A DNA stretch of 36,903 nucleotides from Clostridia bacterium (GTDB taxonomy: Bacteria; Bacillota; Clostridia; Oscillospirales; CAG-272). The notes under the pieces are model-generated. The model made no database searches. It was given only the letters and a program-made list of their open reading frames with translations, and was not told the DNA's origin. Positions 1,700 through 36,818 of the stretch are shown one piece after another. The position numbers and the translations under genes are program-made. The stretch's first letter is position 1, and the number at the start of each line of letters is the position of its first letter. The DNA lies in contig JAFVYZ010000023.1 in assembly GCA_017508425.1 (NCBI GenBank), positions 1 to 36,903 on the forward strand, read 5' to 3'.

Positions 1700-3610
1700 T
1701 TATTGTGTGACTCCCTCACGTGCACACCAGTCGGTGTAGAGGTAGTAAGGAGACTGCACCCCACCCTCATTGGAATTGTAGGCCGTTACCTTCAACGCCA
1801 CGATCGCAGCGCGGAGCACACTGTTGGTGATCTCCTTGGTGGCACCGGTCTCGTCAACGTAGGTCAGGCCCTCGCCAATGTACTCACGGATAAGGTAGGT
1901 CATTTGCCAATCACCGTTTGCAGCTGCGGCAACGGCACGAAGATGCATCGTTTCCACCTCAGCGGAGGTCTGCATATTACCAATCACTTCCCACAGCTTC
2001 GCACTGACGGCATCCATAACCAAAATGCTGTTCTTGTCGATCTTGTAGGAGGGGGTAAAGTTCATACCGAGCGTGGGCGCGATAACCATTTCGAAGTTTT
2101 GCTTGGTATCGTACTCATGGCGATGGATATCATCGGGATCATTGGGGTAAGCAATCAGGGTATTGCCCGTCTTTTCAAGATCCATTTCGTAAAGGTTATC
2201 CTTGGTCGGCTTCGCGTAATAACCGTCAACCTCAGTGGTGTCCTCACCGGCGGCATCCTTCTTATAAACAGGCTCCAGCGTGTAGTTCACGTCCTCAATA
2301 CCGTATTGGAGAAGGTTGCGGATCTCAGTATCCGTATTGATGTAAGTAAGTACCTCGGCGGCGCGCTTCTCGCTGACCGAGTAAGCACCGATACCGAACA
2401 TCGATTTGTAGATCTCCGCATCCGTCAGCTGAGGATACTGAACCACCATCACCTCATAGCCTTCCTTCTCGTACTGGGCCTTCTTTTCATAGGAGCCCTT
2501 CACGATCTTGACCGCGGCCTTGGCATCTTTGTCCGTAGTAAGATAACCGTCGGTAGCCTCGTAGTACACCTTGTTGGCAAGTGCCTTCATGTAGGCGGAA
2601 TCGGTGAGAAGGTTTTTATTTTCAAGAATCGAGGTATCGGGATAAGCATCACCGAAGATTGAGAAGCGGTCGGGGTTTTGCTTAGCAACATCGGTGCTCA
2701 CATCAAAGCTCCAGTAATGAGCATAGTCGATGTCGATCTTGCCGGTTTCGGAATAGATGGGGTAGATCTTGTCGGCACCCGTATAGTTCTCGTAAACGTA
2801 ATCAAGGTACGCCTTGAATTCGCTATCGTAGATCGTGGAGCCCGAAAGATCATCGGTAAAGTCCTTCATCAGGTTCTTGTCGGCCAACATATATACGTAC
2901 TCGCCAACACTGTGGTTGTTGGGGATCGCATAGATCATACCGTTGATCGCGGCGGCCGTCAAGTAGGTGCTGCTGACATAGGAGTTCAGCTTAATTGCCG
3001 AGTCCGAAAGATGAGCCTGCATATCGGCAAGCCACTCGTTATTGGCATACTGCGTGTACTTCTCTTGATTGCCGATGAAAAGAATATCGACTACGTAATC
3101 GGGGATCGAGGGATATTTCAGCTCGGGAATACCGTACTCGTTAAGGATCGTTTCCTCGGTCTTGTTCTCGGTCTGCACGTTGCCGGCAGCAATGTTTTCC
3201 TCATGCTTGGCAAACGCGGCTTCCACAGCGGCATAATAATCTGCCTCAAGGAAATACTTAAGGTTCAGCTGCGTTCTGTAATTGGCTTTGGTCAAGGCGT
3301 TCACCTTCTCGGTGATCTGACCAACCTGATACCAAGCCGCCTTTTGCTCCTCGCTCATCGCGGCAAGAGTTGCCTTCTCCGCATCGCTCAGCAAATTAAG
3401 CGATTCTTTTCTCGGCGTAATGCCCGAAAGGATCACGGCACTGGCATCCACTACCAGCTTGCTCTCGGTAATGAGCCAAACGTTAAGCGTATTGGTGTAA
3501 CGCTCAGCCTCTTTGTTGATGTTGCTGATATCATCATCATTCGAGCAACCGACCAGCAACGGCAGCACCATCAGCAAGGCGAGCAGCAAACATACGATTT
3601 TTTTCTTCAT
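1700..3610 (-). CDS. extracellular solute-binding lipoprotein (ABC type), orphan
   Basis: A 636-residue secreted lipoprotein. The N-terminus is a type II signal peptide: MKKK, a hydrophobic core and the lipobox LVGC (Cys at about residue 22). The mature part resembles large family-1 type extracellular solute-binding proteins of Clostridia. I see no diagnostic ligand motif. The chosen ATG has AGGAGGTCC just upstream; a longer frame to 3718 would put 36 non-signal residues in front of the signal peptide. No permease or ATPase gene is adjacent, so its transporter must be elsewhere, or the protein serves another purpose such as sensing. It has its own promoter and the shared terminator at 1647-1689, so it is monocistronic. 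Confidence 0.8.
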   Translation of the reverse strand: MKKKIVCLLLALLMVLPLLVGCSNDDDISNINKEAERYTNTLNVWLITESKLVVDASAVILSGITPRKESLNLLSDAEKATLAAMSEEQKAAWYQVGQITEKVNALTKANYRTQLNLKYFLEADYYAAVEAAFAKHEENIAAGNVQTENKTEETILNEYGIPELKYPSIPDYVVDILFIGNQEKYTQYANNEWLADMQAHLSDSAIKLNSYVSSTYLTAAAINGMIYAIPNNHSVGEYVYMLADKNLMKDFTDDLSGSTIYDSEFKAYLDYVYENYTGADKIYPIYSETGKIDIDYAHYWSFDVSTDVAKQNPDRFSIFGDAYPDTSILENKNLLTDSAYMKALANKVYYEATDGYLTTDKDAKAAVKIVKGSYEKKAQYEKEGYEVMVVQYPQLTDAEIYKSMFGIGAYSVSEKRAAEVLTYINTDTEIRNLLQYGIEDVNYTLEPVYKKDAAGEDTTEVDGYYAKPTKDNLYEMDLEKTGNTLIAYPNDPDDIHRHEYDTKQNFEMVIAPTLGMNFTPSYKIDKNSILVMDAVSAKLWEVIGNMQTSAEVETMHLRAVAAAANGDWQMTYLIREYIGEGLTYVDETGATKEITNSVLRAAIVALKVTAYNSNEGGVQSPYYLYTDWCAREGVTQ

Positions 3611-3659
3611 ACAGGACCTCCTGCGCGCGTAGCACACGCGCGTAACATTTATATAAAAT

Positions 3660-3688
3660 ATAATACACCAACCTAAAATATTTGTCAA
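3660..3688 (-). promoter_or_regulatory. sigma-A promoter for the orphan lipoprotein
   Basis: Minus strand TTGACA (3688-3683), 17 nt spacer, TATTAT (3665-3660), about 50 nt before the start codon. The stretch 3689-3852 between this promoter and the rpoD stop is AT-rich and I see neither a gene nor a convincing terminator in it. Confidence 0.8.
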
Positions 3689-3852
3689 GTGAAGGTTTCT
3701 TGAACATTTTTGCCGCATTTTAACAAAGACGCGTAAAATGCGGTCATCTTATACAAAAGATGCGAGAAAACATTTCCCATTCGGACTAAAAAATCATCAC
3801 TTTGTTAAACAAACAGGGTTAAAAGTTGTGCAAATCAACGATAATTTAAAGC

Positions 3853-5001
3853 TTAATCAAGGAATCCGCGCAAATGACGTGCACGGCTGGGGTGACGAAG
3901 CTTGCGAAGAGCCTTCGATTCGATTTGGCGAATACGTTCACGGGTGATGTCAAACTCCTTGCCCACCTCTTCAAGTGTACGGGTCCTGCCATCGTAAAGG
4001 CCGAAGCGAAGCTTGATCACGTGGGCCTCACGAGGAGTAAGGGTGTTGAGCTCGCGCTCGATCACCTCACGCAAAATATTGGTCGATGCGGCCTCGGCGG
4101 GCGAGGGAGTATCCTCATCGGGGATAAAGTCACCCAGATGGCTGTCCTCCTCTTCGCCGATCGGCGTTTCAAGGGAAACGGGATCCAGGGCGACCTTCAT
4201 AATTTCACGCACACGCTCGGCACTCATGCCCATCTTTTCCCCGATCTCGGCAGGAGTAGGCTCGCGGCCGAGCTCCTGAAGCATTTGGCGCTGATAGCGC
4301 GAAACCTTATGAATGGTCTCTACCATATGTACGGGAATACGAATGGTACGCGCTTGATCGGCAATGGCACGGGTAATGGCTTGACGGATCCACCACGTAG
4401 CATAGGTGGAGAATTTATAGCCCTTGGTGTAGTCGAATTTATCGACCGCCTTCATCAAACCAAGATTGCCCTCTTGGATAAGGTCAAGGAAAAACATTCC
4501 CTTGCCAACGTATCGCTTGGCAATGCTGACAACCAAACGCAGGTTGGCCTCAACAAGCTCGGTCTTGGCGGTATCGTCCCCTGCGGCCATACGCTCCGCG
4601 AGCTCCTTTTCGCGCTCGGCCGTAAGCAACGGCACCTTGCCGATCTCCTTAAGATACATACGAACGGGGTCGTCGATCGACAAGCCCTCCTGCTCGAGAA
4701 GGCGCTCCATGTTTTCGCCGCCGCCGAAGCGCTCGACCTCGCTTTCGATCTCATTCATTTCACTGGTCGAAATATCGTCGGGCAGGGATACACCGTTATC
4801 CTCAAACGCCTCATAGAGCTTTTCAAGGCTATCCATATCAAATTCCATATTTTCCATCGCCTCATCAAGGTCACTGGTGGAAAGATCCCCCTTCTTACCC
4901 TTTTCGATGAGCTCATCCATATCGACCTTCTTCTCGAGTGACTTTTCCGCCTCCACGCCCTCCGTGGTCAATACTTCCTTTTCCATAACGTCCTTTTTCA
5001 T
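3853..5001 (-). CDS. rpoD: primary sigma factor (sigma-70/sigma-A)
   Basis: This 382-residue protein directs RNA polymerase to housekeeping promoters. Visible in order: an acidic region 1.1-like N-terminus, region 1.2 ([16 protein letters not shown]), region 2 with [30 protein letters not shown] and the -10 reading helix [14 protein letters not shown], region 3, and region 4 with LRFGL and the -35 reading helix TRERIRQIE, ending RHLRGFLD. I chose ATG 5001, which lies 1 nt after the dnaG stop with GAAAGGAA upstream; an in-frame ATG at 5031 inside dnaG is possible. It is the last gene of dgt-dnaG-rpoD, the Firmicute form of the macromolecular synthesis operon. The many TTGACA/TATAAT promoters in this window fit its expected specificity. 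Confidence 0.98.
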
Positions 5002-5002
5002 A

Positions 5003-6793
5003 TTATGTTCTTCCTTTCTCGGTTTCATCATTTTTCTTATTCATCATCGCACGGCGTGCAGCGAGCGCGCCCTCAAGGCCTCCGGCACCGGCCTCGCGCG
5101 CCCGCCTTCGATCACGGAGTGCACGAGCCGCATCGATCAGCACCTCTTTGCCATTGTTTTGCAGAGCCTGGCGATCCTGCTGCAATCGCACAAGACGCCC
5201 CATCTCATCCGGTGAAAATTCCTCACCAAGTGCCGAAAAATAAAACCCGTTTTCGCTTTTTTCGGCCTTCATCATCGCCGAAAAAACACGTCGGCCAAAG
5301 TCGGTAAAAAAGTCCTCGGCATTCAGTGCGACCTGCCCACCGGCACAAAGCCGGCGATGCTCAGGATACAGCAGGCAAAGCCCCAAGACCACCTCCTCGG
5401 CGGCGGCCGCTGCGGGGTCCTTTGCGGCATCGGGATTGACACGATCCCCAAAATTCCGCGCCGAAAGCTGCAATTCGCGACTCTCCTTTTGACGCGCCTC
5501 GCGCGCTTGCTTTGCGCGGGCACGCTTGACGTCGTTGGCCAGTCCCTCGGCTGAAATGCCGAGTCGCTCGGAGGCGGCCGCAAGGTACAGCTCGCGCTCC
5601 ACGCCCGAATACGTTGAAGCGATCAGCGTCGTCACCTCTCTTGCCGCACGGATCTTCCCCTCGGCGGTAGCGACGTTATACTTGGCAAGGATCTTGTCCA
5701 TTTTAAAATCAAATGCCGTGCTGCTTCCCTTCAGCAGGTTTCGGAACGCATCCACCCCAAACTTTTTAATAAATTCATCGGCATCCTTGGCACCCTCAAG
5801 CTTGAGCACGCGCACGGGAACGCCGACCTCATCGAGCAGCTGCATGGCCTTATCCGCCGCGCGTTGTCCTGCGTCGTCACTGTCATAGTTGATGATGACG
5901 CGCTTGGTATAACGCGCGATCAAACGCGCATGGTCGGAGGTGATGGCCGTGCCGAGCGTTGCCACGGCGTTGCCAAACCCTGCCGCGTGCATGGCGATGG
6001 TATCCATATAGCCCTCGCAAAGGATCAGCTCCTCCGCACAATGCTCTTTGGCATAATTCAGGCCAAAAAGCACACGGCTTTTTTTAAAGCCCGGGGTATC
6101 TGAAGAGTTCAAATATTTCGGCTTGCTATCATCCATTACGCGGCCGCCGAAGGCCACGATGTTCCCCGACGTATCGATAACGGGAAACATAATGCGGTTG
6201 CGAAATAAATCAAAAAGCGTACCACGTTGCGATTTTTTCGACAAAAATCCGGCAATCAGCTCACTTTCCGAAAAGCCGCATTTTTTCAAATGCATCGTGA
6301 GCATTCCGAAATCGTTCGGCGCAAATCCAAGGCCGAAGCGTTTGATCGTTGCCCCCGAAAGGCGGCGATTTTCCACAAGATATTTCATTCCCTCCGCCCC
6401 GAGAACGGGATCGAAAAGTGCTGAGCGAAAGAACTTTGCCGCCTCTAAATTCATTTCATAGATACGCTTGCGCGACACGGTGGGCGTGCCACCCAACGTG
6501 TCATTATTGGGGATCGCGATCCCTGCCCTTGTTGCCAAGGATTCGACTGCCCCCACGTAATCAAGATTTTCGATTTTTTGAACAAAGGTGATCACGTCGC
6601 CCCCGGCACCGCACCCAAAGCAATAGAAGCTCTTGGTAGCGGGAAACACGGTGAAGGAGGGGCTTTTTTCACTGTGAAAGGGACAAAGACCATGGCGATT
6701 GGAGCCTGCACGCTTCAGCGATACATAGGTGCCGATCACATCCTCGATGTCACAGCGATAACGGATCTCTTCAATTACTTCCTTTGGAATCAT
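5003..6793 (-). CDS. dnaG: DNA primase
   Basis: A 596-residue primase that makes RNA primers at the replication fork. The N-terminal CHC2 zinc ribbon is complete (C37, H40, C58, C61; [13 protein letters not shown] and [11 protein letters not shown]). The RNA polymerase core follows with FGGRVMDD and [14 protein letters not shown]. The TOPRIM acidic residues are seen in LCEGYMDTI and [11 protein letters not shown]. The C-terminal DnaB-interacting region is present but diverged, as usual. The length is normal. It overlaps the upstream dgt gene by 4 nt (ATGA) and is followed 1 nt later by rpoD, so all three genes are probably co-transcribed and coupled. Confidence 0.98.
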
Positions 6794-7797
6794 TTAACGC
6801 GCCACACCTCCGGAACAAACAAATTGTGATAAAGCTCGATCGCGTAGCGGTCGGTCATGCCCGACAGGTAATCGCACACAGCACGCCCCACCGACTCGGC
6901 CTCGGCCGTTTTTCGAAAATCGTGGGGGAGCTTATCGGGGTGCTTTTCAAAATACTCAAAAAGCCGCGCGAGCAGAGCCTTGGCCTTATCCTCCTCGCCC
7001 TTGGCGGCACTGTCGCGATACACGCGCTCAAACAAAAACGCGCGAAGCTGCCCCGTGGCCTCGAGCACGTCGTGCTCCATCGCGATCTCGGGGCGACCGG
7101 CGCTGGCTTTCACCATCGAGCCGACCATGGTATCAATGCGCTCGCCGTGCGTGTTGCCGAGAATGTCGCGAAGGTCCTTCGGGATCTCATCCAGCTGCAA
7201 AATGCCGGCACGCAGGGCGTCGTCAATATCGTGATTGATGTATGCGATACGGTCCGCCAAGCGCACGATCATCCCCTCGAGCGTTGAGGGAAGACCCTTT
7301 CCCGAATGGTGAGCGATGCCGTCGCGCACCTCAGCCGTAAGGTTCAGCCCTCGGCCGTTGTTTTCCAATTTTTCAACCACGCGCACACCTTGTGCGTTGT
7401 GCGAAAAATCGGGCGAGAAGCACTCTTGCATTACCACTTCGCCCGCGTGGCCAAAGGGCGTGTGCCCCAGGTCGTGGCCAAGGGCGATCGCCTCGGTAAG
7501 ATCCTCGTTCAGGGAAAGAGCGCGGGCAACGGTACGTGCAATTTGGGTCACCTCAAGCGTGTGGGTAAGGCGCGTGCGGTAATGGTCGCCGGCAGGAGCC
7601 AAAAATACCTGTGTTTTATTCATGAGTCGGCGGAAGGATTGGCTGTGTATGATGCGGTCGCGATCGCGTTGAAACTCGGTGCGCATGTCACACTCGGTGC
7701 AGGGACGCTCCCTCCCCTTCGTGCATGCGGAAAGCGTCGCGTAAGGGGAAAGATTTTTCTTTTCTTGTTCGGCTAACCTTTCTTTAATGCTGGACAC
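6790..7797 (-). CDS. dgt: dGTP triphosphohydrolase-like HD protein
   Basis: This 335-residue HD-superfamily protein cleaves dNTPs to nucleoside and triphosphate in characterised relatives. The metal-binding HD signature is complete: TRLTHTLEV (His), then LGHDLGHTPFGHAGE (His-Asp) and the later HSGKGL and DRIAYINHDIDD stretches. The start is GTG at 7797, preceded by AAGGAGGGC at good spacing. Clostridia often carry dgt directly in front of dnaG, linking dNTP pool control with primer synthesis. It is the first gene of the operon; the upstream AT-rich region presumably holds the promoter, but I can point only to a weak TATTAT-like -10. Confidence 0.95.
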   Translation of the reverse strand: MSSIKERLAEQEKKNLSPYATLSACTKGRERPCTECDMRTEFQRDRDRIIHSQSFRRLMNKTQVFLAPAGDHYRTRLTHTLEVTQIARTVARALSLNEDLTEAIALGHDLGHTPFGHAGEVVMQECFSPDFSHNAQGVRVVEKLENNGRGLNLTAEVRDGIAHHSGKGLPSTLEGMIVRLADRIAYINHDIDDALRAGILQLDEIPKDLRDILGNTHGERIDTMVGSMVKASAGRPEIAMEHDVLEATGQLRAFLFERVYRDSAAKGEEDKAKALLARLFEYFEKHPDKLPHDFRKTAEAESVGRAVCDYLSGMTDRYAIELYHNLFVPEVWRVK

Positions 7798-7997
7798 GGT
7801 CTTTGCCCTCCTTATTTATTTATCATAATATAAAATACGATAAAAAAGTAGAAAACTCTTTTTTTTCGGTAAAAAAATGTGAATTTTTAAATTTTTTTCG
7901 TTTTGGGCCCTCTTAGCACGTATATTTTACGGTAAAGCTGCCCTTTTTTTCAAAAAACGTCGAGGGATAAGTTTATAAAGAAATCGCGCCGAATTTA

Positions 7998-8026
7998 TTG
8001 ACAAATTTTTCGCAATATATTATAAT
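7998..8026 (+). promoter_or_regulatory. consensus sigma-A promoter for the HAD/2H cluster
   Basis: TTGACA (7998-8003), 17 nt spacer, TATAAT (8021-8026), about 35 nt before the first start codon. The surrounding 263-nt intergenic space (7798-8060) is AT-rich with no gene, and also has to contain the divergent dgt promoter. Confidence 0.93.
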
Positions 8027-8060
8027 ATATTAGTAAAATTACACTCCAAGGAGAAAATCA

Positions 8061-8891
8061 ATGAAAATCAAAGCAGTTTTAATGGATATGGATGGGACAC
8101 TCCTCGGCCGCAGCCAAGTAGCCGTATCGGTACGCAACATGACGGCGATTCAGCGCGCCATTGAAAAGGGCGTGCACGTCATTCCCTGCACGGGTCGCGT
8201 TTACAATATGCTTCCCCCCCAGCTTCTCACCCAACAGGGCCTTCGTTATTTCGTGACCTGCCACGGCGCTCGCGCCTATGACAAGGTGCTCGACACCAGC
8301 ATTTATGAAAATCTCATCTCGCCCGAAAACTCTGCAAAGCTGCTCAAGATCCTTGAAGGTAAGGGCCTTTATAATGAGATCGCCGCAAACGGCACCATCT
8401 ATTTTGAAAAATCCGTGACGGATAACCTTGATATCAACCAGGTTCCCGAGCACCACGTATGGTACGTGCGCGACAACTGCTACACCGCCGTTGAAAAGCC
8501 CTCGGAATACTTTGCCGAGCACGGTATTTCGATCGAAAAGATCAATCTTTACGGCATCCCCGAGGAGCTTCAGCAGTCGATCTACGACGAGGTAGGTGCT
8601 ACGGGCTTTATCAAGCACACGCGCCCCGGTGCCGGCCCCAATCTTGAATTTTCCACCGACACGCTCGATAAGCTGAAGGCTGTGGATGCCATCCTTAAAA
8701 AGCTCGGCGTTTCTTATGAAGAAACGATGGCCATTGGCGACAGCAGCAGCGACCTCGAGATCCTCAAGGCCTGCGGCCTCGGCGTCGCTATGGGCAATGC
8801 CCCCGACAACATCAAGGCCGTGGCCAACGTGGTAACCTGCCTCAACACCGAGGACGGTCTTGCCGAAGCATTTGAAAAATACGTACTGTAA
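8061..8891 (+). CDS. Cof-type HAD-superfamily phosphatase
   Basis: This 276-residue cytoplasmic HAD hydrolase has the Cof-type type IIB cap. Motif I is MDMDGTLL (nucleophile D9, acid D11), motif II is PCTGR, a lysine serves motif III within the C-terminal core, and motif IV is GDSSSDLEILK followed by GVAMGNAPDNIK, typical of Cof proteins. Characterised relatives dephosphorylate sugar phosphates, flavin or pyridoxal phosphates; the substrate here cannot be read from sequence. It is preceded by AAGGAG and the consensus promoter at 7998-8026. The next gene starts 10 nt after its stop, so it heads a cluster of phosphoester-cleaving enzymes. Confidence 0.93.
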   Translation: MKIKAVLMDMDGTLLGRSQVAVSVRNMTAIQRAIEKGVHVIPCTGRVYNMLPPQLLTQQGLRYFVTCHGARAYDKVLDTSIYENLISPENSAKLLKILEGKGLYNEIAANGTIYFEKSVTDNLDINQVPEHHVWYVRDNCYTAVEKPSEYFAEHGISIEKINLYGIPEELQQSIYDEVGATGFIKHTRPGAGPNLEFSTDTLDKLKAVDAILKKLGVSYEETMAIGDSSSDLEILKACGLGVAMGNAPDNIKAVANVVTCLNTEDGLAEAFEKYVL

Positions 8892-8901
8892 GGAGAAGGG
8901 C

Positions 8902-9753
8902 ATGAGCAAGCGTTTTTTGGTATGCATCGACTCGGACGGATGCGCATTTGACACGATGGAATTAAAGCACAAGGAGTGCTTTTGCCCCGCATACATCAAC
9001 TACTTCGGCCTTCAGGCCGTCTCCAAATACGCACGTGACGCGTGGGATTTTGCCAATCTTTACTCGTGCTACCGCGGCATTCACCGCCTGCGCTCACTCC
9101 TGAAGTCCCTTGAGGTACTGGCCGAGCGTCGCGAGGTAAAGGAGCGCGGCTTCACCGTGCCCGAAATGAAGGAGCTTCGCGCCTACGTTGAGGCAGGCAA
9201 GCCCCTCTCGAACGCGGGACTTGAGGAATATCTCGCCGAGCACCCCGAATCGGAGGAGATCCGAAACACGATCGCGTGGTCGGTCAACGTCAACGACCGC
9301 GTGGCCGAAATGGTGCGCAGCGTTCCCCCCTTCCCGCACGTAAGAGAGTGCCTTGAGAGAATTTCGGAATATGCCGACATCGTGATCGTTTCCGCTACCC
9401 AACAGCTCGCACTTGAGCGTGAGTGGGGCGAGCACGGTCTGCTCGACCTCATCTATGCCGTCAAGGGTCAGGAAAGCGGCACAAAAAAAGAGATCATCGC
9501 GTCGCTCAAGGGCGACTATGAGGAGGGCCACGTGCTCATGATCGGCGACGCCCCCGGCGACCGCGATGCCGCCAAGGCAAACGGCGCGCTCTTCTACCCC
9601 ATTCGCCCCGATGAGGAGGCACAGTCCTGGGCGGAATTCAAAACCGTTATGGACAATTTCTTAAACGGCACCTACGCAGGTGCGCTTGAAGCAGAAAAGA
9701 TCGCACACTTTGAAACCCTGCTTCCCTCCACGCCCGCTTGGCAGAAAGGCTAA
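8902..9753 (+). CDS. HAD-family hydrolase, second copy type
   Basis: A 283-residue HAD protein unlike its neighbour. Motif I is CIDSDGCAFD (Asp-x-Asp), motif II is IVSATQQ, a lysine in GTKKEI may serve motif III, and motif IV is MIGDAPGDRDAAK. A large helical cap (residues about 20-140) lies between motifs I and II, which fits a C1-cap HAD. The start ATG at 8902 follows AGGAGAAGGG. The stop overlaps the next start (TAATG), indicating coupling. The substrate is unknown; phosphoglycolate or sugar phosphate phosphatases share this layout. Lack of close similarity to the first HAD protein argues against a simple tandem duplication. Confidence 0.88.
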   Translation: MSKRFLVCIDSDGCAFDTMELKHKECFCPAYINYFGLQAVSKYARDAWDFANLYSCYRGIHRLRSLLKSLEVLAERREVKERGFTVPEMKELRAYVEAGKPLSNAGLEEYLAEHPESEEIRNTIAWSVNVNDRVAEMVRSVPPFPHVRECLERISEYADIVIVSATQQLALEREWGEHGLLDLIYAVKGQESGTKKEIIASLKGDYEEGHVLMIGDAPGDRDAAKANGALFYPIRPDEEAQSWAEFKTVMDNFLNGTYAGALEAEKIAHFETLLPSTPAWQKG

Positions 9754-10427
9754 TGATGACATACGGAAGAGATATCGGCATTAAATTTTATGAGAACGGC
9801 GACGTACGCACCTACCCCGGCAACACGGTGGTGGCTGACGTCACGCCCGATTGCCCCGCTTACCAGGTGATGTGCGCCCTGCACCAAATGGTGCTGGATT
9901 ACGGCTTTGACAGCCACCAGATCCTGCTCCCGAAGGACAGCTATCACATGACGGTGATCCGCGGTGTCAACGATCAGGTGAGAAAGGATACCCACTGGCC
10001 TGCCGATCTTGCCAAGGATGCGCCCATGACCGAGGTTGACGATTACATCACCCGTGCCGTTACAAGTGTCAAAATGCCCGAGCGTATGCGTATGAAGTTC
10101 CACGAGGTGGTGCTCAACAGCGGCGACATCAAGGTATGCCTGCTGCCCGCTGACGAGGAGCAGGAAAAAATCCTGCGTGAGTACCGCAACGCGGTTGCCA
10201 ATGCCATCGGCTTGTTCTTGCCGGGGCACGACAATTATAGATTCCACATCACCCTCTCCTACACGCGCGTGATTGCCGAGGGTGAAGATGCGGTGCGTAT
10301 GGAAAAGATGCTTGCGGAAATGGACCGCCTCATCAAGGACCAGCCCGACGTTGAAATTACTGCCCCCTATATGGCGTATTACAACGACATGATGGCATTT
10401 TCCCCCGTTCGCATTCCGAGAAATTGA
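9753..10427 (+). CDS. 2H phosphoesterase-like protein (DUF1868-like)
   Basis: A 224-residue protein with the two HxT motifs that define the 2H phosphoesterase superfamily: HMT at residues 65-67 and HIT at residues 165-167, about 100 residues apart, each on a predicted beta strand (SYHMTVIRG, FHITLSY). 2H enzymes hydrolyse cyclic phosphodiesters such as 2',3'-cyclic ends; the closest named group I recognise is DUF1868. The ATG at 9753 overlaps the preceding stop; a second ATG follows directly at 9756. It completes a three-gene run of phosphoester-acting enzymes, and substrate channelling (phosphodiester to monoester to free alcohol) is an inference. Confidence 0.8.
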   Translation: MMTYGRDIGIKFYENGDVRTYPGNTVVADVTPDCPAYQVMCALHQMVLDYGFDSHQILLPKDSYHMTVIRGVNDQVRKDTHWPADLAKDAPMTEVDDYITRAVTSVKMPERMRMKFHEVVLNSGDIKVCLLPADEEQEKILREYRNAVANAIGLFLPGHDNYRFHITLSYTRVIAEGEDAVRMEKMLAEMDRLIKDQPDVEITAPYMAYYNDMMAFSPVRIPRN

Positions 10428-10495
10428 CAGCTACGCCGTTGCATGGCAGAACAAGCTCGTTGCGACAGCAATACTAAAAAATCGAGGTGATGATT

Positions 10496-11263
10496 ATGAA
10501 AAATCTTTTTGATCTGACAGGAAAAATAGCCATTGTCATCGGCGGAAGCCGCGGACTCGGCAGGGGCATGGCAAAGGGCCTGGCCGACGCAGGCGCTACC
10601 GTTGTAATTTCAAGCCGTGGCAAGGAAGCCTTGCTACAGGCTGCAGCCGAGCTTACCGCCGAAACCGGAAGCACCGTTGAGGGTATCGCATTGGACATCA
10701 CGTCCACGGCCGCCATCAACGCCTTTGTTGATGAGGTTGCAAATCGCTTTGGCAGGATCGATATACTGATCAACTGCGCCGGCATCAACATTCGAAAGCC
10801 CGCCCTTGAGTACACCGAAGCGGAGTGGAACAGCGTTACTGACACACAGTTCAAGTATGTTTTCTTTATGAATCAAGCTGTGGGCAAATTTATGGTAGCA
10901 AACGGGATCAAGGGTAGGATCATCAACGTAGGCTCTATTTCAAGCATGGTCGGCCTGAAAAATATGATCGCATACTGCTCCAGCAAGGGCGCGATCACAC
11001 AAATGACAAAGGCTCTCGCAAACGAGTGGGCTCAGTATGGCATCACGGTGAATGCGATAGGCCCCGGTTACTGCATGACGGAGATGACAAAGCCTCTGCT
11101 TTCCGACCAGACCGTTGTGGCAAAATATAAGGAGAAGATCCCCATGGGACGTCTTGGCACGCCTGAGGATATGGCGACCACAGCGGTATATCTCGCAGCG
11201 GACGGCTCCTCTTACGTAACGGGACAAATGATCTACGTTGACGGCGGTTGGCTTGTAAACTGA
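10496..11263 (+). CDS. short-chain dehydrogenase/reductase (gluconate 5-dehydrogenase-like)
   Basis: A 255-residue classical SDR using NAD(P)H. Cofactor-binding GGSRGLGRG lies near residue 18, the NCAG element near 90, and the catalytic Ser-Tyr-Lys is seen in SISSMVG and YCSSKGA. The C-terminus ends in the usual VTGQMIYVDGGW. The overall pattern resembles gluconate 5-dehydrogenase and 2-deoxy-gluconate dehydrogenase types, but SDR substrate calls by eye are weak. ATG 10496 has GAGGTGA 8 nt upstream. It lies 68 nt behind the 2H gene with no clear terminator between, so it may be read from the same promoter. If so, a sugar or sugar-acid route is a reasonable guess for the cluster. Confidence 0.88.
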   Translation: MKNLFDLTGKIAIVIGGSRGLGRGMAKGLADAGATVVISSRGKEALLQAAAELTAETGSTVEGIALDITSTAAINAFVDEVANRFGRIDILINCAGINIRKPALEYTEAEWNSVTDTQFKYVFFMNQAVGKFMVANGIKGRIINVGSISSMVGLKNMIAYCSSKGAITQMTKALANEWAQYGITVNAIGPGYCMTEMTKPLLSDQTVVAKYKEKIPMGRLGTPEDMATTAVYLAADGSSYVTGQMIYVDGGWLVN

Positions 11264-11316
11264 TAATCGTTATAAAAAACCCTTATGGGTAGTAAAAATT
11301 TAATCACAAAGCAACG

Positions 11317-11352
11317 AACTGACATCACTTTTGGGTGATGTCAGTTTTGTTT
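11317..11352 (+). terminator. terminator after the dehydrogenase
   Basis: A perfect 12-bp stem (11317-11328 with 11335-11346) followed by a T-rich tail, about 55 nt after the stop codon. Confidence 0.88.
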
Positions 11353-11405
11353 TAGGTAGAATACGTATGAAGGCATACGAAGCACTGCATTGGGGACACA
11401 AAAGC

Positions 11406-11443
11406 AAAACACGGCATACCTCTTTCGAGATATGCCGTGTTTT
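11406..11443. terminator. terminator after yigZ, probably bidirectional
   Basis: A perfect 13-bp stem (11406-11418 with 11431-11443) with A-rich and T-rich edges. On the minus strand it follows yigZ. A second short GC hairpin, CAGGGGTCGCCCCTG at 11458-11472, lies between it and the yigZ stop. Confidence 0.85.
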
Positions 11444-11487
11444 TGAAAACGATCCTTCAGGGGTCGCCCCTGTAATGCTCCCCTTTT

Positions 11488-12123
11488 TTATGCTTCCGGC
11501 TTGGCATCAAGGATGGTTTCCCCCACCTCGGAAATGGCGCGCCCTGCGGTAAGGTCGGTGACGCGGGCAAGAAACACTTCCACGCGCTCGGAAGGAAGCC
11601 CTACGGTAAGCATTACACGCTCGGCAAATTCGCACCCACGCTCGCGTGCCAAAAAGCGCGGCAGCTCCTGCAGCAATCTTTGATAATCGGGATAGGTCAG
11701 GTCAAGCTGCACGTCGGTGAACGAAACAAACTCGGCCACGCCCGCCTGCTCCAGCGCCTCATGCGCGGCAGCACCGTACGCACGGGTAAGCCCCCCTGCG
11801 CCCAGCAAAATGCCGCCGAAATAACGGGTGGTGGCAACGCAAACATCCGAAAGGCCACGCGTCTCAATGGCGCGAAGGGTGGGCATACCGGCCGTCCCCT
11901 GCGGCTCACTGTCGTCGCCGTAGCGTTTATTGCCATCCTTCAAAAGATACGCAAACACCGTGTGTCTGGCATCGGGATGCATTTTTCTTCGTGCCTTGAC
12001 GAAGGTCTCGGCCTCCTCGACCGTAGATACTCGCTTGACAGCGGCGATAAAGGTCGAGCGCTTTTCAAGGATCTCGGCCTCGGTATCCCGCATCACGGTG
12101 CGAAAAACACCTTCATTTACCAT
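11488..12123 (-). CDS. yigZ: YigZ/IMPACT family protein
   Basis: This 211-residue protein belongs to the UPF0029/IMPACT family. The signature block is clear: KRYGDDSEPQGTAGMPTL followed by TRYFGGILLGAGGLTRAYG. The N-terminal domain carries the conserved stretch and the C-terminal half is the ferredoxin-like domain typical of bacterial YigZ. In eukaryotes IMPACT tunes Gcn2; the bacterial role is not settled, with a translation-linked function suspected. Its start overlaps the end of hflX by 7 nt, so it belongs to the hflX transcript, again pointing to ribosome-linked physiology. Confidence 0.95.
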   Translation of the reverse strand: MVNEGVFRTVMRDTEAEILEKRSTFIAAVKRVSTVEEAETFVKARRKMHPDARHTVFAYLLKDGNKRYGDDSEPQGTAGMPTLRAIETRGLSDVCVATTRYFGGILLGAGGLTRAYGAAAHEALEQAGVAEFVSFTDVQLDLTYPDYQRLLQELPRFLARERGCEFAERVMLTVGLPSERVEVFLARVTDLTAGRAISEVGETILDAKPEA

Positions 12124-13400
12124 TCGCTCTCCTCCCTTGGCGGCTCCTTGTCATAGTCGCGGAGCTGCCCGTAGGTTTTGGCATCGACCACCGCCGTGAC
12201 CGTCACCGCATCAGGGCCGTAAGAGACCTCCTCGACCGTGGCATTGCGATACAGGACCGACAAAAGGCCCTGCTTATGGTTCGGGATGCGGAAGGTCACC
12301 CTGCGACTGCCCTCGTGGAGCATTTCCTCGATGCGCACGAGCAGGCGATCTACGCCCTGCCCCGTTGCGGCCGAGATAAAGAGCACGTTCTCGCGCCCGT
12401 GCACGGCCCCCGGAATCGCTACACCGAGGTCGCATTTATTAAAGACGTACAAAATGGGCTTTTCACCGGCACCGAGGTCGCGAAGGAGCGATTCGGTCAC
12501 ATCGATCTGCGCGGCCGCCTCCGTGTCCGAGGCATCGACCAGCACCAAAAGCAGGTCGGCGTGCGTCGCCTCCTCGAGCGTAGAGCGAAAGGCGTGGATG
12601 AGATGGTGAGGCAAATTGCGGATAAAGCCAACCGTATCGGTCAAAAGAATGGTTTCACCACCCGGCAGGCGGCATTTGCGCGTCGTCGGGTCAAGAGTTG
12701 CAAAAAGCTTGTCCTCAGCAAGGATCCCCGCATCGGTCAAGTAATTGAGAAGCGTGGATTTCCCCGCATTGGTATAGCCAACGATCGACACACGCGCAAG
12801 GCCCGAGCGATCACGCGCCACACGCTGGGTGCGACGGTTTTCCGCCATTTCGGCAAGCGATTCCTCAAGCATTCGAATGCGTCGCTGCAAATGACGTCGG
12901 TCGGTCTCAAGCTGACTCTCACCCGGGCCTCGGGTGCCGATACCGCCGCCAAGACGGGAGAGCTCGGTGCCCTTGCCCATCAAGCGAGGAGCCGTATATT
13001 TTAACTGTGCAAGCTCGACCTGCAGCTTGCCCTCGCCGCTGGCGGCGTGCAGGGCAAAAATGTCAAGGATCAACATCGAACGGTCGATCACGCGCACCGC
13101 GTCACCAAGCGCCTGCTCAAGATTTCGAATTTGTGAGGGAGAAAGCTCCGAATCAAAAACCACCAGCGACACATCGTTGCGCGCACAATAAAAGGCAAGC
13201 TCCGCCGTCTTACCCGATCCAAGATAGGTACGCACATCGGGCGCTTCTTTATTTTGCATCATCTTAAACGCGCACACGCCGCCCGCCGTTTCAAGCAAGC
13301 GCTCAAGCTCCGCAAGACCCACCTCGGCCTCCTCGACTGTACCGCGCGTTACCACACTGACCAGTGCCGCGCGCACACCTTCAAAATTCTGATTTTCCAC
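12117..13400 (-). CDS. hflX: ribosome-associated GTPase HflX
   Basis: A 427-residue GTPase that splits stalled or hibernating 70S ribosomes in studied bacteria. The N-terminal domain shows DVRTYLGSGKTAEL and FDSELSPSQIRNLE. The family linker RGPGESQLETDRR precedes a coiled-coil segment. The G domain has G1 GYTNAGKST (208-216), G3 DTVG (255-258), G4 NKCD (321-324) and G5 ISAATG. The start is GTG at 13400, with GGGAGGTGA just upstream; the in-frame ATG at 13595 lies inside rpmE and adds non-family residues. It is located after the rpmE terminator, so expression probably relies on readthrough or a promoter I cannot see. Confidence 0.96.
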   Translation of the reverse strand: MENQNFEGVRAALVSVVTRGTVEEAEVGLAELERLLETAGGVCAFKMMQNKEAPDVRTYLGSGKTAELAFYCARNDVSLVVFDSELSPSQIRNLEQALGDAVRVIDRSMLILDIFALHAASGEGKLQVELAQLKYTAPRLMGKGTELSRLGGGIGTRGPGESQLETDRRHLQRRIRMLEESLAEMAENRRTQRVARDRSGLARVSIVGYTNAGKSTLLNYLTDAGILAEDKLFATLDPTTRKCRLPGGETILLTDTVGFIRNLPHHLIHAFRSTLEEATHADLLLVLVDASDTEAAAQIDVTESLLRDLGAGEKPILYVFNKCDLGVAIPGAVHGRENVLFISAATGQGVDRLLVRIEEMLHEGSRRVTFRIPNHKQGLLSVLYRNATVEEVSYGPDAVTVTAVVDAKTYGQLRDYDKEPPREESEW

Positions 13401-13421
13401 GGCTTCACCTCCCTTTTGATA

Positions 13422-13449
13422 GAAAAAGGGGGCAGTAAGACCTGCCCCC
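13422..13449 (-). terminator. terminator after rpmE
   Basis: Stem GGGGGCAG (13428-13435) with CTGCCCCC (13442-13449); on the minus strand it is followed by TTTTTCT. It stands between rpmE and hflX and would limit readthrough into hflX. Confidence 0.85.
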
Positions 13450-13488
13450 GATACTGCCGTACCAAGACGGCTGCGTGAAATGACTCGA

Positions 13489-13695
13489 TTATTTTCTTGC
13501 CTGGAGTCTTCTGTTGAACTTGTCAACACGGCCGCCCACGTCAACCAGCTTTTGCTTGCCGGTGAAGAACGGATGACATTTAGAGCAAATTTCAACCTTC
13601 ATTTCCCCGCCGTTGGTAGACTTGGTCTTCACCATATTGCCACAAGCGCAAATGATGTTGACGTCTTCATAGGTCGGATGAATTCCTGCTTTCAT
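13489..13695 (-). CDS. rpmE: 50S ribosomal protein L31 (zinc-binding type)
   Basis: A 68-residue L31 starting [12 protein letters not shown]. The zinc-binding form is shown by CACGN and [13 protein letters not shown]. The start is set by GGAGAGGTGG upstream; an in-frame ATG at 13758 would add 21 lysine-rich residues overlapping the promoter. It has its own promoter and terminator, so it is an independent unit between sigE and hflX. Confidence 0.98.
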
Positions 13696-35240: not shown

Positions 35241-35269
35241 ATTATAGCGCATAAATATGCACTTGTCAA
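35241..35269 (-). promoter_or_regulatory. consensus promoter for the amino acid ABC operon
   Basis: Minus strand TTGACA (35269-35264), 17 nt spacer, TATAAT (35246-35241), about 48 nt before the start codon. I see no T-box or riboswitch in the short leader. Confidence 0.92.
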
Positions 35270-35337: not shown

Positions 35338-36444
35338 TCACTGTCTTTTGCATAAAGCCACAATTTCGGCCGCCACTGCATCGGGGGAGCGATCGGCCTT
35401 GACCGTGACGTCGCACAGCTCCTCATTACGATATTCATCATCCAGCGAAAGAATGCGGCACGTTTTATCATCGGGGTCAAGGTCGCGCGATACGATATCG
35501 CGAATGACGTCGTAACGGCCACGCTGCATAAAGACCGTCAGGGCCTTGGTACGGTAACGGTTTTTGAGTGTCAAGGCCCCGCAAATGTCGATCGGGATCA
35601 CCGCCCACTTGCCGGCATTCACGATGGTGTCGATCTCATTCGATGAGGTTCCGAAATAATGGCCGCTGTAAACGGTGGTTTCAAGGAATTCACCGGCATC
35701 GCGCTTAAACAGAAAGGTCGCCTCGTCAAGAAAGCGGTAATTCCCCTCTTCTCCATCACGCGTCGGACGCGTGGTAGCGGTAGCAGGCTTTTCCATACCG
35801 TAACGAATCGAAAGCTCCTTTGCTACGGCATTTTTGTTGCTGCCCGTAGGACCGACCAGGCAAACCACACCGCCGGCCGAAAGGTCGGGGCGCTCCCCGG
35901 CAAAGGCGTGGCAAATAATATCCACCAAATGCAGGAAGTCATCGTAGGAGTTCACGGACAAAAGGCCCGAGAGGTGCGTGTTCCACGTGCGGCGGAAGAG
36001 CACCGGATAGGTCGCCGGGGTGCGCGTGATATTATGCGCGCCATCATCGAGCAAAATGTCAAGATTGACCATATCCTTGCGCGTGCCGATGAGCACGTGC
36101 TCGGGCGGAATTTCGGGGAAATCCTGAACTAGGCGCAGGGCGCGCGCCGACATACAGGCGGGCGGTACGGCCGTTACAAAAAACACGTCGGCCACCTTCG
36201 ACAAGCGGCGCACAAATTCCTTTGCTCCCTCAAATATCGGCTGATGGGCCACAAAATCAGGATCGCTAAAATAAGCAATGCGTGCGTCAGCACGGGTACC
36301 GTCAGTTCCCCAACCGCGGATATCATACACACTGAGAGGCGGGTCGTACCCCTCTCTTTCGTTCAAGCATTTGAGCGCATAGGCGTTGCAATCGTAAAGC
36401 ACGTCGTCAACGTCAAGCCCCACACGGAGTCTGTATTTTTTCAT
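35338..36444 (-). CDS. fusion of a HAD 5'-nucleotidase-like domain and a guanylate kinase-like domain
   Basis: A 368-residue two-domain protein. Residues about 5-185 are a HAD domain of the 5'(3')-deoxyribonucleotidase type: motif I GLDVDDVLYD (D11, D13), motif II FVTAVPP (T91), motif III lysine near 123 (GTRKDMV), motif IV LLDDGAHN (D133, D134). Residues about 192-365 follow guanylate kinase: VCLVGPTGSNKNAVAKE, ATTRPTRDGEEGNYRF, VYSGHYFGTS and IPIDICGAL. The P-loop reads GPTGSNKN (198-205) where GxxGxGKS/T is expected: the lysine is kept but the last glycine and the Ser/Thr are not. ATG 36444 follows AAAGGGAGG. The gene is monocistronic. A role in nucleotide pool handling is inferred; whether the kinase half phosphorylates or only binds is open. 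Confidence 0.85.
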   Translation of the reverse strand: MKKYRLRVGLDVDDVLYDCNAYALKCLNEREGYDPPLSVYDIRGWGTDGTRADARIAYFSDPDFVAHQPIFEGAKEFVRRLSKVADVFFVTAVPPACMSARALRLVQDFPEIPPEHVLIGTRKDMVNLDILLDDGAHNITRTPATYPVLFRRTWNTHLSGLLSVNSYDDFLHLVDIICHAFAGERPDLSAGGVVCLVGPTGSNKNAVAKELSIRYGMEKPATATTRPTRDGEEGNYRFLDEATFLFKRDAGEFLETTVYSGHYFGTSSNEIDTIVNAGKWAVIPIDICGALTLKNRYRTKALTVFMQRGRYDVIRDIVSRDLDPDDKTCRILSLDDEYRNEELCDVTVKADRSPDAVAAEIVALCKRQ

Positions 36445-36472
36445 CGTTACACCTCCCTTTTGTGTCCTTTTC

Positions 36473-36567: not shown

Positions 36568-36596
36568 TTGACAAAAGGGAATGCTTATGATATAAT
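36568..36596 (+). promoter_or_regulatory. consensus promoter for the tRNA pair
   Basis: TTGACA (36568-36573), 17 nt spacer, TATAAT (36591-36596), 30 nt before tRNA-Met. Confidence 0.93.
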
Positions 36597-36625
36597 ATCC
36601 AAGCGTTGTGAAAACAAGGCAACAT

Positions 36626-36702
36626 GGCGGGATAGCTCAGCTGGCTAGAGCAACCGGTTCATACCCGGTAGGTCATGGGTTCAAGTCCAATTCCCGCTAC
36701 CA
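36626..36702 (+). tRNA. tRNA-Met (CAT), elongator type
   Basis: A 77-nt tRNA with encoded CCA. The acceptor pairs GGCGGGA with TCCCGCT, including a first G-T pair as in elongator tRNA-Met of Bacillus. The D arm is normal (AGCTCAGCTGGCTAGAGC-like). The anticodon stem ACCGG/CCGGT holds loop TTCATAC with CAT at 36660-36662; the lack of three G-C pairs there argues against initiator tRNA. The T stem has one G-A mismatch (ATGGG with CCAAT). Confidence 0.95.
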
Positions 36703-36708
36703 ATAAGA

Positions 36709-36738
36709 CACAAAATGCGGAGTAATCCGCATTTTGTG
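36709..36738. repeat. perfect hairpin between the two tRNA genes
   Basis: CACAAAATGCGGA (36709-36721) and its exact complement (36726-36738) around loop GTAA, a 13-bp stem. It may be a terminator of tRNA-Met, though the T tail is poor, or a processing guide; only 5 nt remain before tRNA-Glu. Confidence 0.75.
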
Positions 36739-36743
36739 AATAT

Positions 36744-36818
36744 GGCCCGTTGGTCAAGCGGTTAAGACACCGCCCTTTCACGGCGGTAACAGGAGTTCGA
36801 TTCTCCTACGGGTCACCA
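36744..36818 (+). tRNA. tRNA-Glu (TTC)
   Basis: A 75-nt tRNA with encoded CCA. The acceptor GGCCCGT pairs with ACGGGTC (one G-T pair). The anticodon stem CCGCC/GGCGG holds loop CTTTCAC with TTC at 36777-36779. The T arm AGGAG/CTCCT is perfect. It shares the promoter at 36568-36596 with tRNA-Met. Confidence 0.97.

Follow-up and report, generated by a model that had tools for sequence, protein, structure and literature searches.

The window analyzed here (the whole 36,903-nt stretch, i.e., contig C7 of a 1.77 Mb genome with 61 contigs and 83% completeness) contains a gene encoding a protein in which a HAD-type nucleotidase domain is joined to a guanylate kinase-like (GK) domain. Comparison with its relatives leads us to favor, with moderate confidence, an explanation in which this protein would be a salvage 5′-nucleotidase regulated by a domain that was once a guanylate kinase and now binds a nucleotide without phosphorylating it. 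In this protein family of uncultured Clostridia, most of them from the gut, a core metabolic kinase seems to have been turned into a control domain, and the open-access literature searched holds no description of it; the search yielded nothing on a nucleotidase-GK architecture, nothing linking NrnA, SurE, and a nucleotidase, and nothing on a guanylate kinase pseudoenzyme with a P-loop. This agrees with the original prediction for this gene, whose author knew of no characterized protein of this architecture; known domain families seem to occur here in an undescribed arrangement. The gene and its features, all of which are located on the minus strand, are:

36452..36457, minus strand: GGGAGG, likely ribosome-binding sequence just 5′ of the fusion ATG (from the sequence)
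35338..36444, minus strand: NT5C-guanylate kinase fusion gene, a real open reading frame with an ATG start, encoding 368 aa plus stop
35923..36423, minus strand: HAD 5′(3′)-deoxyribonucleotidase-like (NT5C) domain, residues 8–174 (Pfam PF06941, E = 1.7e-14)
36400..36414, minus strand: HAD motif I, DVDDV, residues 11–15 (D11 and D13 invariant, 111/111)
35491..35865, minus strand: guanylate kinase-like domain, residues 194–318 (Pfam PF00625, E = 5.1e-12)
35830..35853, minus strand: altered P-loop GPTGSNKN, residues 198–205 (from the sequence and the alignment with Gmk)
35758..35775, minus strand: TTRPTR, residues 224–229 (R226 and R229 correspond in the alignment to R49 and R52 in the own-genome Gmk)
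35647..35664, minus strand: GHYFGT, GMP-site segment, residues 261–266 (from the alignment with Gmk)
35575..35589, minus strand: DICGA, residues 286–290 (D286, C288, G289, and A290 invariant in 111 sequences)

Both Pfam domains of the window protein scored above their gathering cut-offs, and the fusion architecture initially proposed could be confirmed in its relatives, as both domains are present in all 84 of the 84 sequences in a thinned alignment (NT5C at E 0.001), with the GK domain behind the nucleotidase; this added domain is what distinguishes them from the NT5C 5′(3′)-deoxyribonucleotidases (PF06941), of which the N-terminal half matches almost the entire profile (positions 4–174 of 180; 54.6 bits versus a cut-off of 24.8). 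Among solved sequences, the nearest to this half was PDB 3bwv (E = 5.1e-8), a putative 5′(3′)-deoxyribonucleotidase that can be aligned with it around motifs I, III, and IV; PDB 4mum, a mitochondrial 5′ nucleotidase, matched at E = 0.6 only. The HAD motifs noticed earlier in the window protein are a property of the family, with D11 and D13 (which we take to be the motif I Asp pair), K123 (presumably the motif III Lys), and D133 and D134 (presumably the motif IV acidic pair) present in 111/111 fusion sequences; Thr91 of motif II is conserved in at least 90% of the family, with Ser in some members. The solved sequences nearest to the second half are mostly Gmk entries. The NCBIfam guanyl_kin model (TIGR03263, an equivalog) matched residues 193–356 with 70.9 bits, and its cut-off of 160.45 was not reached.

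A total of 115 distinct fusion sequences were gathered, and 111 were used after four pieces had been dropped (one broken gene in two parts and two sequences cut by contig ends). Full-length fusions were found in 18 of 146 genomes of the bacterial family to which the window belongs, its own genome included. A larger draw from this family gave matches at 1e-40 in 60/395 genomes representing 19 of 71 genera (one of the 60 being merely a 131-aa piece at a contig end), while an order-level draw gave 9/394 and a phylum-level draw 1/398, i.e., the own genome alone; these three draws scored five candidates per genome, and misses are thus possible. In a second family of the same order (f20), 6/63 genomes matched at 1e-30, one with a GK-only sequence (L151) that turned out to be an ordinary Gmk and one with a sequence cut by the contig start. 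Within the own genus, 20 of 21 genomes presented a match to the fusion GK domain (once as a contig-end piece), and the exception is a genome with 52% completeness. A scan of named genome contigs identified 266 coding relatives; the best 80 of these 266, which were retained, all bear titles that identify them as MAGs of Clostridia, Oscillospiraceae, Lachnospiraceae, Clostridiales, Eubacteriales, or Ruminococcus, and many isolate names among these 80 indicate rumen, caecum, colon, or feces. Neither a plasmid nor a phage origin is supported, as at least 80% of the query was covered by 0/167 plasmid records and by one of 63 matching phage records. This phage record (MT839612.1) is an unannotated 4,154-base scaffold from human feces entitled “UNVERIFIED: Bacteriophage sp.”, and its fusion relative (L219, positions 571–1614) covers 94% of the query with 36.5% identity; the record may represent mislabeled bacterial DNA. 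Viral contigs yielded one relative, of the nucleotidase part only, and 0 PADLOC families of anti-phage defense matched at E 0.1.

The GK half is, judged from substitution rates, under purifying selection. Between the window gene and two relatives that share its GPTGSNKN, dN/dS was 0.088 and 0.063 for the GK half (with GK dS of 1.4 and 1.6, near saturation) and 0.066 and 0.050 for the HAD half, and the median over those genus pairs whose dS lay between 0.1 and 2 (61 of 171) was 0.156 for the GK half and 0.104 for the HAD half. The GK half changes faster over the tree (16.7 changes per column, as compared to 10.3 in the HAD half), and 13 of its columns are invariant among the 111 sequences. The codon for Asn203 is AAC or AAT, both of which are used among five own-genus sequences. 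Many P-loop variants, one broken relative (L173), and the position of the gene near the end of a window that is a whole MAG contig could all suggest an assembly artifact or a decaying gene with a functionless GK half. We regard this as very improbable, given 111 usable distinct sequences from many assemblies, the GK dN/dS of 0.06–0.09 against close carriers, and the invariant GK columns; these counts oppose such a reading as far as sequence can argue against it. A single-genome artifact, which the original prediction had named as a possible refutation, is contradicted by the 115 distinct sequences and by the recurrence of the fusion across the genus.

As a reference for the GK half, we used 13 Gmk of the same bacterial family, including the one from the own genome. 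The fusion and Gmk (PF00625, TIGR03263) share the domain family, most GMP-site residues, the P-loop lysine, and two lid arginine positions; residue assignments for GMP binding and catalysis, including R226 and R229 as phosphate-binding, are assumed to be those of published Gmk structures. In the window protein, T224, T225, R226, R229, Y236, E255, Y259, G265, and T266 are the same as in 13/13 Gmk, with mild changes in the GMP site (T222 for Ser and F264 for Tyr) and an acidic D286. K204 (the P-loop lysine) and R330 (Gmk Arg156) are present in 111/111 fusion sequences, and residue 320 is Arg or Lys in 109/111 (R320 in the window protein). In contrast to Gmk, the fusion is family-wide without Glu109 and, with one exception, without the lid Arg141, and in one of its two branches (branch A, see below) the P-loop is mostly incomplete. 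The residue at the Glu109 position, located two before D286, is acidic in 13/13 Gmk, P, T, V, I, or A in the fusions (acidic in 0/111), and Pro284 in the window protein; the Arg141 position, Arg in 13/13 Gmk, is Arg in 1/111 fusions and Asp316 in the window protein; and the Arg143 position is I, V, L, or M in 111/111. The P-loop of 13/13 Gmk reads GP.G.GKGT, i.e., Gly before the lysine, Gly directly after it, and Thr at the second position after it, whereas the window protein has Asn203 before the lysine and lacks the Thr two residues behind it. The degeneration of the P-loop described in the original prediction therefore holds for the lost Gly before the lysine; the loss of Ser/Thr right after the lysine, also described there, is not diagnostic because the Gmk of these bacteria has Gly at this place. 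GPTGSNKN, TTR, GHYFGT, and DICGA were all found where that prediction had placed them, with the altered P-loop next to a preserved GMP site. For a domain with a GMP pocket but no ability to phosphorylate, sensor or holder is the most plausible role; the sensor suggested in the original prediction is supported, by inference, by the family-wide pattern, by the purifying selection on the GK half, and by the presence in 21/21 own-genus genomes of a distinct Gmk that exceeds the curated cut-off.

In the tree, the fused GK domains form one clade against the 13 Gmk (support 100), with branch A, which includes the window protein, containing 87 sequences (support 100) and branch B containing 24 (support 97). 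Branch A retains R226 (86/87), R229 (72/87, missing in 15), and Y236, E255, Y259, and D286 (87/87 each); Gly203 is present in 30/87 and, together with Ser/Thr205 (i.e., a complete GxGK[S/T]), in 13/87. Residue 203 in this branch is Ser (33), Gly (30), Leu (8), Asn (5), Arg (4), Phe (3), Met (2), Lys (1), or Cys (1), and residue 205 is Thr (50), Asn (34), Gly (2), or Ile (1). Branch B presents Gly203 in 23/24 and Ser/Thr205 in 16/24, with R226 and R229 in 1/24 each and Glu255 in 15/24 (Gln in the other 9); 16/24 combine Gly203 with Ser/Thr205, and two of these 16 carry Ser201. R229 is present in 57/57 branch A sequences without Gly203 and in 15/30 with it, a contrast behind which there are few independent changes. 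One branch B fusion, in genome G915 (L173), is broken into two open pieces.

This distribution allows a tentative, more specific reading, in which a GK domain that lost catalysis would survive as mirror-image half-sites, with branch A keeping the NMP pocket and branch B the P-loop; branch A would then sense guanine mononucleotides or (p)ppGpp and branch B a triphosphate, each setting the activity of the nucleotidase. Some of the members with both Gly203 and Ser/Thr205 may, from their motif, bind ATP, which speaks against the explanation that we favor. The own assembly has one fusion of each branch. If true, this would represent a nucleotide-level switch for the salvage of RNA and DNA breakdown products. 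A different role for the GK half, as a lobe that captures GMP or dGMP for the HAD site and confers guanine preference without regulation, would fit the NMP site kept in branch A and the constant presence of both domains in one chain (84/84); it is made improbable by branch B, which retains the fusion despite having lost the two phosphate-binding arginines (1/24 each).

P-loop variation in the family is extensive. The whole-protein tree implies 16 changes at position 203, 10 at position 205, and none at K204 (14 and 10 changes at 203 and 205 on a second tree). For the base of the fusion clade, parsimony reconstructs Asn205, from which Thr would have emerged later, and either Arg or Gly at position 203; the P-loop is therefore not necessarily the eroded form of a complete one. 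The same reconstruction has the acidic residue lost once, at the base, and the losses of Glu109 and of the lid Arg are common to both branches. As to the conservation of GPTGSNKN, which had been raised as a question, four distinct own-genus-clade sequences carry it (a fifth has GPTGTNKN) and it recurs in a branch B sequence (L189) that is distant on the tree, but it is not fixed across the family, in which P-loops vary and some are complete (e.g., GPSGTGKT in L099). This range of complete, partial, and lost P-loops would make it possible to compare kinase-like with kinase-dead forms closely, whichever the direction of change.

The complete P-loops also bear on whether the fusion might be a bifunctional enzyme, in which the GK half would still phosphorylate an NMP, possibly using a different donor or substrate, and phosphate removal would fall to the HAD half, setting the NMP level or exchanging phosphate as does Pnkp. 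The polynucleotide kinase-phosphatase of T4 and mammals (Pnkp), with a HAD phosphatase and a P-loop kinase in one chain, provides a precedent; the fusion differs from it in having an NT5C-like phosphatase and a kinase of the guanylate kinase family that looks impaired. The invariance of K204, R330, and D286, the near-invariance of R320, the combination of Gly203 with Ser/Thr205 in 13/87 branch A and 16/24 branch B sequences, and the ability of the local Gmk to manage without Ser/Thr after the lysine are all in line with kinase activity, and K204, R330, and R320, as residues that an active kinase would need, count against the explanation that we favor. Such an enzyme nevertheless appears unlikely, as the Glu109 position is never acidic, the lid Arg141 is found in 1/111, Gly203 is replaced in 57/87 branch A sequences (often by Ser, Leu, Phe, Arg, or Met), and every one of the 21 genus genomes has a dedicated Gmk.

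Guanylate kinases that have lost catalysis are known from animals. According to PMC4718807, the GK domains of MAGUK proteins have lost kinase activity and reuse the GMP surface for peptide binding. The fusion resembles the MAGUK GK domains (e.g., PSD-95 and Dlg) as a guanylate kinase that appears from its residues to have become non-catalytic with a reused GMP surface, and the two-branch half-site reading would be the bacterial counterpart of the MAGUK story; the fusion differs in being bacterial, in being joined to a nucleotidase, and in keeping its pocket residues as for a nucleotide. By analogy, the GK half could be a protein-binding module that tethers the nucleotidase to a partner, since the fusion likewise retains the pocket while losing other kinase residues. 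We consider this rather unlikely, because the branch A pocket residues are almost unchanged, which a nucleotide ligand explains better, and because no shared neighbor gene was seen in branch B, 13 loci of which were inspected, while in the own genus the neighbor is a transporter.

The salvage context of the nucleotidase is suggested by the gene neighborhood in branch A. A DHH gene lies no more than 5 kb from the fusion in 59/115 entries, as does SurE in 51/115, and all of these loci belong to branch A but not to its own-genus clade (59 and 51, respectively, of 67 such sequences), with none among the 20 own-genus-clade or 24 branch B sequences; a second query set gave 57 DHH and 50 SurE genes within 8.5 kb. 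The DHH representatives are DHH-DHHA1 proteins nearest to NrnA that score below the equivalog cut-off (230 and 228 versus 350 bits), and the SurE representatives score above the TIGR00087 cut-off. We identified three gene orders: a same-strand arrangement with a DHH pair and SurE downstream of the fusion (e.g., L099; 15 loci, with SurE in reach in 10), SurE before the fusion and the DHH pair after it (e.g., L087; 6 loci), and a divergent set on the other strand (e.g., L066; 37 loci from one tree clade, mostly rabbit MAGs); one more locus has DHH genes about 5 kb from the fusion. As 37 of the 59 DHH loci have the same gene order and come from a single tree clade, these counts are not independent; retention of the same company in a rearranged order argues for a shared pathway. 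Fusion and SurE also co-occur at the genome level (SurE in 12/18 genomes with the fusion and 25/128 without; Fisher p = 9e-5, kinship ignored). In the own genus, an NrnA pair was found in 3/21 genomes and SurE in one of four examined, and none adjoins the fusion; the salvage context is therefore borrowed from relatives.

Under our preferred explanation, a cytosolic HAD 5′-nucleotidase would act on (d)NMPs and, where it lies near NrnA, would pass NMPs on to nucleosides; in PMC9757072, NrnA is described as converting RNAs of 2–4 nt to NMPs. The GK half would perform no kinase chemistry and would serve as the ligand-binding regulatory half of the nucleotidase, with a pocket that may bind GMP, dGMP, or a guanine alarmone, and ligand binding would alter nucleotidase activity such that mononucleotides from short RNAs would be dephosphorylated for salvage only under nucleotide excess. 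In PMC6783271, (p)ppGpp is reported to inhibit the Gmk of several phyla at the active site, and the GMP pocket kept in the fusion could sense the alarmone in a similar manner; while the kinase itself is inhibited there, the pocket would here control a fused nucleotidase. This would name a new control point between RNA and DNA breakdown (NrnA, SurE) and nucleoside salvage.

Other neighborhoods are more diverse. In the window, the neighbor of the fusion gene is an amino-acid ABC transporter (read by eye) with its own perfect −35/−10 sequence at 35269–35241; a further perfect −35/−10 sequence precedes tRNA-Met and tRNA-Glu genes that are divergent from the fusion gene (36568–36818). At five loci (L065, L061, L073, L109, and L075), a FAD-dependent oxidoreductase gene (identified by eye) directly follows the fusion on the same strand. 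No common neighbor gene was seen by eye in the 13 branch B loci inspected. In branch B, the fusion of L181 is followed after 7 bases by a DeoD-like frame, and a thymidine kinase-like gene is found within 8.5 kb in L172 and L181.

Two other contigs of the own genome carry related genes. Contig C52 (L218, positions 1731–13564) contains an NrnA-NrnA-SurE set (SurE and DHH were assigned by family and the other genes by eye), which is preceded by genes encoding thymidine kinase, DeoC, DeoD, DeoB, cytidine deaminase (Cdd), pyrimidine-nucleoside phosphorylase (Pdp), and uridine kinase (Udk), and followed by genes encoding a lipoprotein and a secreted endonuclease I-like protein, an apparent run of nucleic-acid scavenging genes. 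Contig C10 carries a second fusion, of branch B, with the P-loop GPSGSGKS (L002, positions 916–2034; L152, positions 8058–9170), making this the only one of the 60 matching family genomes with two fusion copies. The amidohydrolase gene next to it has a relative at E 1e-30 in only 1/20 other genus genomes (39% identity). Among 25 loci compared, C10 and C52 are nearest to the window in tetranucleotide make-up, and the NrnA gene of C52 has relatives with 75–78% identity, also paired, in two other genus genomes. C52 is thus probably native, and C10 may be native or acquired, or possibly a contaminant.
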